From Thiomicrospira sp. UBA5634 (GTDB lineage Bacteria > Pseudomonadota > Gammaproteobacteria > Thiomicrospirales > Thiomicrospiraceae): DNA of 9,296 nucleotides. Positions 326 to 8,447 of this stretch are shown piece after piece. The position numbers and the translations under genes were made by a program. The stretch is taken from assembly GCA_002421475.1 (NCBI GenBank), contig DIJW01000005.1, positions 1,635 through 10,930 on the forward strand, written 5' to 3'. Under the pieces are notes generated by a model. The model saw only the letters and a list, made by a program, of their open reading frames with translations. It ran no database searches and had not been told where the DNA came from. The stretch's first letter is position 1, and each line of letters opens with the position of its first letter.

Positions 326-1516
326 ATGAAGAACAGTCAAAACACTAAACTCAAAATCCTTGTCACAGGAGGAGCCGGGTTTATAGGCTCCGCAGTTGTT
401 CGTCATATTATCAATGACACTGATTATGCCGTCGTTAATGTGGATAAACTCACCTATGCCGGAAACTTAGAGTCTCTAGCAAGTGTCAGCCAAAATCCGC
501 GTTATGCGTTTGAACAGGTTGATATTTGCGATGCTGCAGCGTTAAAACGTGTGTTTAACCAACACCAACCGGATATTGTGATGCATCTGGCGGCCGAGTC
601 ACATGTCGATCGCTCGATTGACGGCCCGGGTGAATTTATTCAAACCAATATTGTCGGTACTTACACATTACTCGAACAAGCGCGTGCTTATTGGAATCAA
701 CTACAAGGTGATAAAAAAACCAACTTCCGTTTTCATCATATTTCAACCGACGAAGTCTATGGCGACTTGCCGCATCCTGATGAAACAACACTTGGTCATC
801 CTGAACACAGTGAAGGATCTCCAGCAGATGGACAAGATTCTTCGTCTTCGCCTCAGAATGACAATAGGGTGTTACCGCTCTTCACAGAAGATACGGCCTA
901 CGCCCCGAGTTCACCCTACAGCGCCAGCAAAGCGGCATCTGATCATCTTGTTCGTGCTTGGTTGAGAACCTACGGACTACCTACATTAGTCACCAATTGC
1001 TCTAATAATTACGGCCCGTATCACTTCCCGGAAAAACTGATACCGCTGATGATTCTGAATGCCCTTGAAGGCAAACCCCTGCCTATTTACGGCAAAGGCA
1101 ATCAAATCCGCGACTGGTTGTATGTCGCAGACCATGCTCGTGCATTGGTTTTAGTCGCCACCCAAGGAAAAGTAGGTGAAACCTATAACATCGGCGGCCA
1201 CAACGAAAAACAAAACATCGAAGTTGTCACCACAATTTGCAGTATTATGGACGAGCTTGCCCCCATGCACGAACGCGGCTATTCACTCAACACTCAACAC
1301 TCAACTCTCATAACTCACGTTAAAGACCGTCCCGGCCACGATATGCGCTATGCTATCGACGCCAGCAAAATCCAACGCGAACTCGGCTGGACGCCACAAG
1401 AAACCTTTGAATCCGGGATTCGTAAAACCGTACAATGGTATCTCGACAACCAGGCCTGGTGCCAACACGTCCAAGATGGTAGCTACCAAAGAGAAAGATT
1501 AGGAAGTAAACAATGA
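326..1516 (+). CDS. rfbB: dTDP-glucose 4,6-dehydratase (RmlB/RfbB) with two repeat-derived insertions
   Basis: Extended-SDR enzyme that converts dTDP-glucose to dTDP-4-keto-6-deoxyglucose in the cytoplasm, the second step of dTDP-rhamnose synthesis. The NAD-binding GGAGFIG is at residues 15-21, the catalytic STDEVYGD begins at S140 (D142/E143), and YSASK is at 198-202. The C-terminal [12 protein letters not shown] and [21 protein letters not shown] are typical. The ATG at 326 is chosen because family proteins begin a few residues before [12 protein letters not shown]; the frame is open back to a GTG at 260 but that part is repeat-like. No clear Shine-Dalgarno is visible. It has 396 aa against about 355 for the family. 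The excess is largely a palindromic-repeat peptide (around [13 protein letters not shown]...QNDNR) and an LNTQHST heptapeptide before [11 protein letters not shown]. Catalytic motifs are intact, so activity is plausible. Its stop overlaps the start of the rfbA remnant (ATGA). Confidence 0.95.
335..355 (+). repeat. Degenerate heptamer units in the rfbB start region
   Basis: AGTCAAA, ACACTAA and ACTCAAA follow one another in 7-bp steps and encode most of the non-conserved N-terminal residues before KILVTGG. Only ACTCAAA matches the other arrays exactly, so this copy is the weakest. It is listed because the same arrangement (heptamers coding the residues before a Rossmann motif) recurs at 7335. 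Confidence 0.4.
795..862 (+). repeat. Palindromic repeat copy 1, in frame inside rfbB (arm order L-R)
   Basis: The left arm (795-820) begins GTCATCCTGAAC and ends GTGAAGGATCT. The right arm (835-862) begins AGATTCTTCG and ends CTCAGAATGAC. The arms are imperfect reverse complements separated by 14 bp, so RNA or single-stranded DNA could fold into a long hairpin. It is translated in frame as roughly GHPEHSEGS...DSSSSPQND, between conserved [10 protein letters not shown] and [20 protein letters not shown]. RmlB proteins normally have only a short variable loop there. The arms match those at 7529-7589 at 24/26 (left) and 26/28 (right) positions. Confidence 0.85.
1285..1305 (+). repeat. Three perfect ACTCAAC heptamers inside rfbB
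   Basis: Three exact tandem copies of ACTCAAC occupy 21 bp and add seven residues (LNTQHST) before [12 protein letters not shown]. Normal RmlB has a variable loop here. Related bases (TCTCA, TAACTCA) follow. Three units keep the frame, while one or two would not. Confidence 0.85.
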
Positions 1517-5733: not shown

Positions 5734-6915
5734 ATGAAAATTGCTGTAGCTGGAACAGGGTATGTTGGTCTGTCGTTAGCGGTGTTGTTGGCGCAGCATC
5801 ATGAAGTGGTAGCGCTGGATATTATTAAGGAAAAAATTGATTTACTTAATAATAAAAAGTCACCGATTGTCGATGCCGAAATTGAAGATTTTCTGGCGAA
5901 TAAACCTCTTAACTTAACCGCGACGTTGGATAAAAACCAGGCCTATCAAGGCGCGGAATTTGTGGTGATTGCTACACCGACGGATTACGACACCGAGACC
6001 AATACCTTTAATACTAAATCCGTTGAAGCAGTCATTAAAGATGTTTTGGTGATTAATCCAAGCGCGATAATGGTCATTAAATCGACTATTCCGGTCGGTT
6101 ACACCAACGCTGTTAAAGCCAAATTTAACACCGACAATATTCTGTTTTCGCCTGAATTTCTGCGCGAAGGCAAAGCACTTTGGGATAACTTGTATCCTTC
6201 ACGTATTGTGATGGGTGAACAGTCAGAGCGTGCTAAAACGTTTGCTAATTTATTGGTAGAAGGTGCGGCGAAGCCGGCAAAAGACATCCCGGTGCTTTTT
6301 ACCGACTCTACTGAAGCCGAAGCGATTAAGCTATTTTCAAACACTTATTTAGCTTTGCGGGTGGCGTATTTTAACGAGTTGGATACCTATTGCGAAACCC
6401 ACGGTTTAAGCACCAAACAAGTGATTGAAGGCGTTGGCCTTGACCCACGTATCGGCAACCATTACAACAACCCGAGTTTTGGTTATGGCGGCTATTGTCT
6501 GCCCAAAGATACCAAGCAATTGTTGGCCAATTATAATGATGTGCCGCAAAACATTATCCAAGCGATAGTGCAATCGAATACCACTCGCAAAGATTTTATT
6601 GCCGATCAGATCATTAAACGCAAACCCAAAACAGTGGGTATTTTCCGTTTGGTTATGAAGCAGGGATCAGACAATTTCCGCGCCAGTGCGATTCAAGGCG
6701 TGATGAAACGGATTAAAGCCAAAGGCATTCCGGTAGTGATTTATGAACCGGTTTTAACAGAAGCGGGCGAAACTGAGTTTTATCACTCAAAAGTGATTAC
6801 TGATTTTAATGAGTTCAAAAAAATGTCAGACGTTATTATCGCCAACCGCCTCACCGACGACCTGCTGGATGTACAGGGCAAGGTGTATACTAGAGACTTG
6901 TTCGGAAAAGACTGA
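5734..6915 (+). CDS. ugd: UDP-glucose 6-dehydrogenase
   Basis: A 393-aa cytoplasmic enzyme that oxidises UDP-glucose to UDP-glucuronate with two NAD+. The N-terminal Rossmann motif is [15 protein letters not shown]. Then come [42 protein letters not shown], and [25 protein letters not shown]. The catalytic cysteine is C255 in [16 protein letters not shown]. The C-terminal UDP-binding domain includes [25 protein letters not shown]. Length and motifs match the bacterial E. coli-type Ugd (about 390 aa). An AAGG element precedes the ATG. Close relatives include UDP-N-acetyl-sugar dehydrogenases, but length and the [13 protein letters not shown] signature favour Ugd. The product is the substrate expected for the epimerase downstream. 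Confidence 0.95.
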
Positions 6916-6929
6916 TTACAGTGATGAAT

Positions 6930-6957
6930 TTTAAGTTGTGAGTGTTGAGTTTTGAGA
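6930..6957 (-). repeat. Inverted heptamer array at the left side of the four-helix-bundle gene
   Basis: On the minus strand, reading down from 6957, the 7-bp units are TCTCAAA, ACTCAAC, ACTCACA and ACTTAAA. They are the same units as in the + strand arrays at 7335 and 8159, in the opposite orientation. The right end overlaps the TTG start codon (6952-6954) of the four-helix-bundle gene. Confidence 0.8.
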
Positions 6958-7326
6958 GATGAAAACAATGTGCTAAGTAAGGCGTTTTCGTTCGCGGTGA
7001 GAGTTGTTAAGTTGTATCAGTTTTTGTCGAAAGAACATAAAGAATATGTTTTATCAAAACAATTGCTGAGATCAGGTACGTCAGTAGGGGCAAATATAAA
7101 TGAAGCGCAAGCGGGGCAGAGTAAAGCCGATTTTATTGCCAAAATGAGTATTGCAAGCAAAGAAGCAAGAGAAACCAAATATTGGATAGAGCTTCTTTGT
7201 GAAACTACCTATTTAGATAAAAATGAAATGCATGTTCAAACGCTCCTAGAACAAAACGAAGAACTCATTAACATTCTAACCAGTATCGTAAAAAGTGCTC
7301 AACAAAATATAAAAACGAAAATATGA
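6952..7326 (+). CDS. Four-helix-bundle protein (S23/IVS family, Avd-like fold)
   Basis: A 124-aa, helix-rich soluble protein with the family signature: KAFSFAVRVVKLYQFL (10-25), YVLSKQLLRSGTSVGANINEA (32-52), then QSKADFIAKMSIASKEARETKYWIELL. This family (TIGR02436/PF05635) is known from proteins encoded in 23S rRNA intervening sequences and is structurally related to Avd of diversity-generating retroelements; most stand-alone members have no known function. The TTG at 6952 is chosen because family proteins often begin M-R-(D/E)-x-N just before this point; GTG at 6970 is an alternative. The gene has no obvious role in polysaccharide synthesis, interrupts the ugd-epimerase pair, lies between inverted heptamer repeats, and overlaps the next start (ATGA). 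These points suggest a recent arrival. Confidence 0.9.
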   Translation: MRDENNVLSKAFSFAVRVVKLYQFLSKEHKEYVLSKQLLRSGTSVGANINEAQAGQSKADFIAKMSIASKEARETKYWIELLCETTYLDKNEMHVQTLLEQNEELINILTSIVKSAQQNIKTKI

Positions 7327-8447
7327 AACAAACAACTCAAAACTCAACATTAAACATTCTCATCACCGGCGCCGCAGGCTTTATCGGTTTTCACCTTATC
7401 CAAGCACTTAAACCGTTCGGTCACAACATTGTCGGTATCGATAACCTAAACGACTACTACGATCCGCAGCTAAAACTCGACCGCCTAAAGGCTCTTGGAC
7501 TTGATAAAGCCTGTATTGATCAATTGCTAGATTCTTCGGCTTTGCCTCAGAATGACAAAGTATGTCATCCTGAACGAAGTGAAGGATCTTTAACATTCCA
7601 AAAACTCGATTTAGCTGACCGTGAAGGTGTTGCGCAGTTATTCAACGACCACAAATTCGACATCGTCGTTAACCTTGGCGCCCAAGCCGGTGTGCGTTAT
7701 TCAATCGAAAACCCGCATGCCTATGTTGATTCTAATTTAGTGGGCTTTGTGAATATCCTAGAAGGCTGCCGACACAGCAAAGTCAAACACCTAGTCTACG
7801 CCAGCTCCAGCTCAGTTTATGGCATGAACATCAAACAACCTTTTAGCACCGATGACCGTGTTGATTACCCAATCAGCTTGTATGCCGCGACTAAAAAATC
7901 CAACGAACTGATGGCGCACACTTACAGCCACCTTTACGGCATTCCAACCACCGGGCTACGATTCTTCACTGTTTATGGCCCTTATGGTCGTCCCGATATG
8001 GCGTATTTTTCGTTCACCAAAAAAATCCTCAATGGCGAAACCATCGACGTATTTAATAATGGTGAAATGCAACGCGACTTCACCTACATTGATGACATAG
8101 TAGAAGGCATTGTTCGCGTCATGGAATGCCCCCCTGAAGCTACCAAAGGTGGCCAGCCACTCAACACTCAAAACTCACAACTCAACACTGCCGCTCCGGC
8201 CCCATACAAAATTTATAACATCGGCAATAACCAGCCCATAACCCTACGCCGTTTTATCACCGCCATAGAAACCGCTACCGGTAAAAAAGCCAAAGAAAAC
8301 CTGCTGTCGATGCAACCCGGTGATGTGCCGGCTACCTACGCAGACGTTGACCAACTGATCGCCGACACCGGTTTTAAACCGTCAACAACCATCGAAGAGG
8401 GTATCGCAAAATTTGTCGAATGGTACAAAAGCTATTATCAAAAATAG
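7323..8447 (+). CDS. UDP-glucuronate 4-epimerase-like NAD-dependent epimerase with repeat-derived insertions
   Basis: Extended-SDR enzyme, probably interconverting UDP-GlcA and UDP-GalA. The Rossmann GAAGFIG is at 16-22, followed by IVGIDNLNDYYDPQLKLDRL, typical of the CapI/LpsL group. LGAQAGVRYSIENPHAYVDSN, YASSSSVYG, YAATKK (Y187, K191) and FFTVYGPYGRPDMA follow in the expected order. The C-terminus has YNIGNNQP and MQPGDVPATYAD. It has 374 aa, against roughly 335 for the group. The surplus includes a palindromic-repeat segment (about 69-90, DSSALPQND...CHPERSEGS) before FQKLDLADREG, and a heptamer-coded LNTQNSQLNT before APAPYKIYNIG. Residues 3-10 are also heptamer-coded. Active-site motifs are intact. 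The upstream ugd supplies the expected substrate. Start ATG overlaps the stop of the four-helix-bundle gene. Confidence 0.92.
   Translation: MKQTTQNSTLNILITGAAGFIGFHLIQALKPFGHNIVGIDNLNDYYDPQLKLDRLKALGLDKACIDQLLDSSALPQNDKVCHPERSEGSLTFQKLDLADREGVAQLFNDHKFDIVVNLGAQAGVRYSIENPHAYVDSNLVGFVNILEGCRHSKVKHLVYASSSSVYGMNIKQPFSTDDRVDYPISLYAATKKSNELMAHTYSHLYGIPTTGLRFFTVYGPYGRPDMAYFSFTKKILNGETIDVFNNGEMQRDFTYIDDIVEGIVRVMECPPEATKGGQPLNTQNSQLNTAAPAPYKIYNIGNNQPITLRRFITAIETATGKKAKENLLSMQPGDVPATYADVDQLIADTGFKPSTTIEEGIAKFVEWYKSYYQK
7335..7355 (+). repeat. Heptamer units at the right side of the four-helix-bundle gene, inside the epimerase start
   Basis: ACTCAAA, ACTCAAC and a diverged ATTAAAC follow in 7-bp steps and encode part of the non-conserved N-terminus of the epimerase. 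They lie in the opposite orientation to the array at 6930-6957, so the four-helix-bundle gene sits between inverted copies. A near-identical stretch (AACTCAACATTAAA) recurs at the window end. Confidence 0.75.
7529..7589 (+). repeat. Palindromic repeat copy 2, in frame inside the epimerase gene (arm order R-L)
   Basis: The AGATTCTTCG...AGAATGAC arm comes first (7529-7556), then seven bases (AAAGTAT), then the GTCATCCTGAAC...GGATCT arm (7564-7589). The arms are imperfect inverted repeats and can form a hairpin. Compared with the copy at 795-862 the arms are nearly identical but in swapped order. The segment is read in frame as about DSSALPQND-KV-CHPERSEGS, just before the conserved FQKLDLADREG strand. 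Confidence 0.88.
8159..8186 (+). repeat. Four ACTCAAC-type heptamers inside the epimerase gene
   Basis: Four units in exact 7-bp steps: ACTCAAC (first and fourth), ACTCAAA (second), ACTCACA (third). They encode the centre of PLNTQNSQLNTAAPAP, in a surface loop before YKIYNIGNNQP where this enzyme group is already variable in length. The same peptide style (LNTQxS) appears in rfbB. Confidence 0.85.

Follow-up and report, generated by a model that had tools for sequence, protein, structure and literature searches.

Gene, arrays and neighbours at the locus

The window, i.e. the whole 9,296 nt stretch of Thiomicrospira sp. UBA5634 that was analysed (genome G000, 84 % complete), carries a short gene for a four-helix-bundle protein between the genes for a UDP-glucose 6-dehydrogenase (ugd) and an NAD-dependent sugar epimerase (Table 1). 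An earlier, sequence-only reading held that this gene parts ugd from the epimerase, that inverted heptamer arrays bracket it and that the left array supplies its TTG start; all three statements were confirmed. The 14-mer TGTTGAGTTTTGAG at 6943–6956 is the exact reverse complement of CTCAAAACTCAACA at 7336–7349. No longer exact inverted match exists between the two flanks of the gene, and 0 of 2000 base shuffles reached this length. The start codon (6952–6954) lies within the left array, and the epimerase ATG (7323) overlaps the stop of the four-helix gene. The right array codes for part of an N-terminal extension of the epimerase, which is missing in the congeners G001 and G003.

Table 1. Genes and heptamer arrays in the window (positions in nt from the first base of the window)
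Feature	Positions	Strand	Basis
ugd, UDP-glucose 6-dehydrogenase, left host gene	5734–6915	+	profile matches, ORF list
Left heptamer array, degenerate, 4–5 units, holds the inverted 14-mer	6925–6956	−	direct reading, Tandem Repeats Finder
Four-helix-bundle gene (S23 / 23S rRNA IVP, PF05635), 124 aa, TTG start in left array	6952–7326	+	
Right heptamer array, holds CTCAAAACTCAACA at 7336–7349	7335–7355	+	direct reading, period-7 scorer
NAD-dependent sugar epimerase, right host gene	7323–8447	+	profile matches, ORF list
Solo array, same heptamer type as unit, inside rmlB	1284–1310	+	
Solo array, same heptamer type as unit, inside epimerase gene	8158–8184	+	

Tandem Repeats Finder delimits the left array at 6925–6956, with a period of 7, 4.6 copies and 72 % matches. 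On our own period-7 scorer the right array passed (10.5) and the left array failed, which is partly accounted for by the trimming of the left flank at the start codon for this scorer. From the window by itself the case for arrays is modest, because the left array is degenerate; the arrays at relatives' loci make it strong. In the predicted fold of the window transcript the closing stem consists of the two arrays paired, with an energy barely below that of shuffled sequences (z −1.35, 10 of 100 shuffles as good).

The four-helix protein matches PF05635 at 97.2 bits (cut-off 33.8) and TIGR02436 at 106.9 bits. Its other profile matches are two weak hypothetical-protein models only, and no transposase-like family was found on it in profile searches. 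An Rfam scan of 6900–7400 gave no match, and rRNA was likewise not found in the rest of the window or at ten further loci, most of them with no or weak arrays.

In the congener G004 an rmlB-like gene has an array at a similar position, as seen by reading; the gene names prs, rplY, rpsI, thiO and rmlB-like in relatives likewise come from reading of translations. Matches to the generic pattern AYTYANNAYTYANNAYTYA, searched for in the genus, cluster on the window's contig (5 of 6 in G000); this pattern reads the same backwards, so the reversed-pattern control is uninformative. Another kind of repeat, around CATCCTGAAC..AGTGAAGGATC and with an HPERSEGS-like peptide, is found at about 797–865 and 7530–7592 of the window, in frame in rmlB and the epimerase gene, and similar sequence occurs at the thiO|thiS junction of relatives (L108, L116).

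Period-7 arrays around homologues

A first sample comprised 80 loci picked by protein similarity alone, with usable flanks (at least 100 bases) upstream in 79, downstream in 78 and on both sides in 77. Array thresholds were self-set, at a period-7 score of at least 9 for flank counts and at least 8 for arm comparison. Within 200 bp, arrays were found upstream in 57/79, downstream in 40/78, on either side in 69/77 and on both sides in 26/77; control windows of 200 bp, more than 700 bp off in the same loci, had an array in 86 of 1573 cases. At a score of 10, period 7 was detected in 54/79 upstream and 39/78 downstream flanks, and period 14, a multiple of 7, in 36 and 36. Periods 5, 6, 8, 9 and 10 gave none at this score, period 11 gave two and period 12 one. 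By group, as assigned from record titles, arrays on either side accompany the gene in Gammaproteobacteria (11/12), Campylobacterota (19/21), Ignavibacteria (4/4), Clostridia (30/35) and the rest (5/5); within the same 200 bp, both arms are present in just 4 of the 35 clostridial loci.

Among 274 gammaproteobacterial genomes drawn, 57 have a match to the family, 52 of them above the curated cut-off. These genomes supplied an independent sample, in which 50 of 68 places were scored, the window's copy, one further G131 copy and the 16 weakest having been dropped; flanks of at least 100 bases were available upstream in 49, downstream in 49 and on both sides in 48. Arrays lie on either side in 43/48 and on both sides in 25/48, with 13 of 322 distant windows positive. 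After merging of genes at 85 % nucleotide identity, the either-side counts are 56/64 in the first sample and 39/44 in the independent one. ParE toxin genes of the same class served as a control (30 loci from 30 of 94 genomes): arrays were found within 200 bp on either side in 0/30 and in distant windows in 0/196, and one of the 30 loci had an array if 500 bp upstream was allowed. On plasmids, 14 of 25 records were examined and 13 of these 14 loci have arrays on both sides. At 110 loci a neighbouring reading frame (at least 70 aa, mechanical calling) was called on each side of the four-helix gene, and in 73 of them both neighbours have its direction.

Orientation and specificity of the arms

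Two arms with a score of at least 8 are present at 59 loci; they are inverted in 49, direct in 5 and tied in 5. The sequence-only reading had named inverted heptamer flanks at homologues in other contexts as a check, and such flanks were found in both samples and on plasmids. The similarity of an arm to its own partner is 0.76, compared with 0.525 across loci, and at these 59 loci the own partner ranked first in 24 and within the top 5 % in 38. The heptamers vary widely between copies (GAGTTCT, GGTGATG, AGGGCCA, TAGGGAT, AATTCGT and others) and differ even among the copies of one genome (G091). Similar proteins go with similar heptamers (129 loci, Spearman 0.42, 0/300 permutations as high), a correlation that may be plain co-inheritance or common descent.

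Mirror-image pairing of the arms unit by unit was also tried and was rejected (33 loci, mean p 0.57, p<0.05 in 1). As the arms are unmatched at this level, exact pairing is not under visible selection.

A stop triplet on the strand of the gene occurs in 79/106 upstream arms and in 22/88 downstream arms. With a stop in the upstream arm and a stop-poor downstream arm, the unit would terminate the frame before it and start the one after it, and insertion inside operons would therefore be tolerated. A mobile unit would also account for N-terminal extensions resembling NSKFKIQ in many operon proteins and for the split plasmid gene described below.

Filled, empty and decayed sites

The family is present in five of the nine genomes of the window's genus. 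The unit is located at the ugd–epimerase junction in G000 and G004, and a decayed copy of the gene with three stops is found there in G005. In G001 and G003 the end of ugd lies directly before the epimerase and the four-helix gene is absent, so the empty junction that the sequence-only reading had called for does exist in congeners; the epimerase match in these two genomes begins at residue 11 or 12, beyond the heptamer-encoded N-terminus. The ugd–epimerase pair was not found in G002 and G006.

Nostoc plasmids provide filled and empty sites that can be compared base by base. Plasmid pC052_A has a unit with four heptamers per side, and its sister plasmid in the same strain, pC052_D, is without it (L229 versus L220). 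The two match at 100 % over 347 bp in the right flank and at 92 % over 432 bp in the left, and the array–gene–array block of pC052_A stands in place of a 188 bp target. Five of the listed records were taken as empty relatives of the L220 site. On three further records (L223, L224, L234), also plasmids, the unit lies inside a cytosine methyltransferase gene, 328 bp of which have been replaced; by the look of it, this insertion is one shared event. Three plasmids, pC052_C, p057_N and one of UHCC 0302, have an uninterrupted methyltransferase gene (L235–L237, with PF00145 in L235). In L223 position 2357 closes the four-helix ORF, and the next base, 2358, begins the TTG with which the right-hand methyltransferase fragment opens within the right array. 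Two plasmids have the unit at the cas2|cas1 junction and two lack it (L238, L239). No target duplication was seen by eye at the three Nostoc sites, where the target was replaced, and no arrays were seen at the empty sites. Comparison shows that the arrays at Nostoc sites come and go together with the gene, and that array, gene and inverted array are a single unit acquired independently of place, at separate sites.

Some sites are common to families. In six loci the gene directly follows an rpsI-like gene (L145, L151, L152, L153, L157, L201), a site that is probably shared by descent; L145, L153 and L157 are without an array at threshold 9. Sites of this kind would suit an ordinary, vertically inherited operon gene with flanks prone to heptamer slippage, an explanation with which the split methyltransferase gene is already in conflict. 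Sites that are empty, decayed or inside a gene, arms that are inverted and copy-specific, and control genes without arrays all speak against it, leaving it very improbable.

Gene-less pairs and solo arrays

The prs|rplY site was followed in one family (searched-for gene in 7/8 genomes, forms judged by eye). Two genomes have the four-helix gene there, its right arm being weak; two others have an inverted pair that lacks the gene and is of another heptamer type, and two more are degenerate. For the copy in G064 no ORF of 60 aa was called, and this copy may have decayed. G286, from another genus, has neither gene nor arrays at this site.

For 125 arrays lying over 700 bp away from the four-helix gene at their locus, an inverted partner was found within 150 bp in 36 and a direct partner in 25; with a random other array as control, an inverted partner was found in 5. 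The frequency of direct partners (25/125) counts against a mobile unit. The similarity of distant arrays is higher to the unit at their own locus than to other units (0.73 vs 0.58, 112 arrays).

The heptamer of the G162 unit has 215 overlapping matches in G162, 67 in the congener G273 and 0–1 in eight other genomes. Inverted pairs were seen at 5/20 and 3/19 of the places examined in G162 and G273, respectively, most places being single arrays. As G273 combines numerous matching arrays with the absence of a PF05635 match, either the gene was lost or the arrays spread without it. Likewise, the G091 heptamer has 63 overlapping matches in G091 (24 of these in the unit's own left array), 36 in the congener G215 and 0 in eight other genomes. 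On a 69 kb Dolichospermum plasmid the unit query matches at 21 places, counted by query match only. By reading, a solo array of the window's type lies at the thiO|thiS junction in four congeners (L108, L116, L121, L127); two of the congeners with this solo array (G001, G008) are without a PF05635 match.

Arrays without the gene, common as in G273, would be expected if the arrays came first, as a separate dispersed repeat and recombination hot spot at which small cassettes (the four-helix gene, toxin–antitoxin pairs) are swapped by array homology. Two congeners offer examples at the ugd–epimerase junction itself: G008 has two genes there, one of them for a ParE toxin (PF05016), and G007 another small two-gene pair, each followed by an epimerase with a heptamer-like N-terminus. 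An array beside a toxin–antitoxin-like pair was also noted in G008 (L126, by reading). However, arrays are not a general companion of ParE genes (0/30 within 200 bp, 1/30 with 500 bp upstream allowed), none were seen at the Nostoc empty sites, and the prs|rplY site of G286 has neither gene nor arrays. An origin from pre-existing arrays is judged unlikely overall, though it may hold at some loci. The two-gene pairs at congeners' junctions occupy 2328–2838 of L093 and 936–1468 of L094, and the non-ParE pair is toxin–antitoxin-like by reading only.

Protein fold and the reverse transcriptase question

The predicted structure of the window protein (pLDDT 93) has a four-helix fold and resembles the S23-family structures 2RLD (TM 0.82) and 2GSC (XCC0516). 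These two entries have five chains each, and the S23 structures are presumably pentamers. Similarity is lower to Avd and to the Avd subunits of a diversity-generating retroelement reverse transcriptase complex (TM 0.58–0.71, E 0.09–0.3); chains of 4DWL and 8UB7 gave TM 0.66–0.71, with weak Foldseek E values of 0.09–0.3. Kinship between the fold of the four-helix family and Avd is stated in the accessible portion of PMC10053308.

This kinship, seen also in the structure comparison, would fit a retroelement in which a reverse transcriptase acting in trans copies the unit, with its Avd-like protein, via an RNA intermediate, as would the replacement of the target without visible duplication in the Nostoc insertions. 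Reverse transcriptase genes (PF00078), however, occur in 8/17 genomes with PF05635 vs 28/77 without, a cross-count that shows no enrichment, and no PF00078 match was found in G000 (84 % complete) or in G091, which has four PF05635 copies and is 99 % complete. A reverse transcriptase helper was therefore rejected. The sequence-only reading had suggested help in trans, and this idea, read as a reverse transcriptase by way of Avd, received no support; the retroelement explanation is quite unlikely.

Comparison with known systems

In the available text of PMC4990558, the intervening sequence (IVS) of Coxiella 23S rRNA has terminal inverted repeats that form a 28 bp stem, three tandem heptamers, variable in number, upstream of the S23 ORF, and an RNase III site at the first repeat. 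Such sequences took the place of a small tetraloop, and rRNA intervening sequences were called possible transposition remnants in 1990 (cited in PMC4990558). The present units are alike in the PF05635 family ORF, the terminal inverted repeats and the heptamers just upstream of the ORF, and the loss of the tetraloop is in line with target replacement on the Nostoc plasmids. The window unit itself has the S23/PF05635 ORF and terminal inverted repeats able to form a stem. However, the known IVSs are located in rRNA genes, whereas the present units lie in protein operons, that of the window being between ugd and the epimerase, and inside a gene. They also differ in having copy-specific heptamers, gene-less forms and scattered arrays. 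The sequence-only reading had called the unit a candidate undescribed one; its design is in part described, as upstream heptamers and terminal inverted repeats are already described for the Coxiella IVS in the part of PMC4990558 available.

REPIN/RAYT systems, as presented in the accessible part of PMC3116915, share with the units a gene flanked by a repeat, gene-less inverted doublets, dispersed singlets and a repeat type matched to the nearby gene. The repeat-flanked gene and the gene-less inverted doublets are found here and a Y1 transposase gene is not: RAYT is a tyrosine (Y1) transposase and REPs are palindromes, whereas here an Avd-like four-helix protein is accompanied by tandem heptamers. 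The four-helix bundle fold of the protein resembles, at lower similarity, that of Avd of diversity-generating retroelements, but no reverse transcriptase was found in the window's genome (84 % complete) and none is enriched in hosts. Unlike a DDE or HUH insertion sequence, the window has no transposase gene between its inverted arrays.

Dispersed heptamer arrays have been reported for GGGAATC in Xanthomonas, partly as inverted pairs (PMC4692102), and for TAACTGA in Beggiatoaceae and cyanobacteria (PMC4679880). These are alike in their tandem heptamers and, in Xanthomonas, in their inverted pairs; they differ in that no gene is named behind them, S23 and helix bundle being absent from the accessible portions of both papers. 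No GGGAATC arrays were found in the 274 gammaproteobacterial genomes, and the reversed control pattern was found among these in G162 only (8 matches). No literature linking heptamer arrays to an S23/PF05635 gene outside rRNA was found, in a search that lay mostly outside subscription journals and preprints.

Interpretation

Because the bracketed gene occurs at many unrelated places in several phyla, and some of these places are empty in relatives, the unit is likely a mobile element that is built like a 23S rRNA IVS and is located outside rRNA, here between ugd and the epimerase (probability roughly 0.77). The sequence-only reading had proposed mobility, which is supported by the inverted flanks in varied contexts and by the empty sites, including the nucleotide-level ones on Nostoc plasmids. 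Against this, no movement was observed and no target duplication was seen by eye. Further points on that side are the lack of unit-by-unit matching between arms, the small energy advantage of the window's predicted fold, the lack of a transposase-like family on the protein, the arrays of G273 without a PF05635 match, the clostridial loci with usually a single arm, and the shared sites.

The unit would move by itself. The four-helix protein, with its S23/Avd-group fold, would recognize the heptamers and help insert copies with or without the gene. Insertion may proceed via a copying or repair reaction in which a stretch of the target is replaced and no obvious target duplication results. In the transcript, by analogy with rRNA intervening sequences, the two arrays would pair into a stem, which RNase III would cut.

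A broader proposal is tentative and is held at somewhat less than even odds: the units could constitute a class of mobile elements without a known transposase, with copy-specific inverted heptamer ends and an Avd-like four-helix protein as the only gene, leaving behind gene-less hairpins and solo arrays. Both rRNA intervening sequences and the unexplained Xanthomonas, Nostoc and Beggiatoaceae arrays could stem from such a class. Bacterial heptamer arrays have appeared in print without a known cause, as far as the available text of PMC4692102 and PMC4679880 extends. Here, rRNA intervening sequences and heptamer arrays are both linked to a single gene family, for which empty sites are resolved to the base; mobility, a helper and the role of the protein are therefore directly testable.

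Further occurrences of the gene

Several defence-like plasmid operons house the gene (L226, L227, L221, L228), with DISARM drmD and MmeI, helicase and methylase, and DUF1156 and HEPN. Two distant matches to the family were found in phages. Two four-helix genes lie within 2.2 kb of each other in G131, and in an Oscillospiraceae genome a second four-helix gene, identified by reading, is located about 750 bp downstream of the first (L064, 3001–3354). Oceanisphaera avium and O. profunda each have two four-helix proteins on one contig (P0011 and P0012, P0018 and P0019). The sole difference within the O. avium pair is one extra N-terminal residue, and these are possibly recent copies within one genome.
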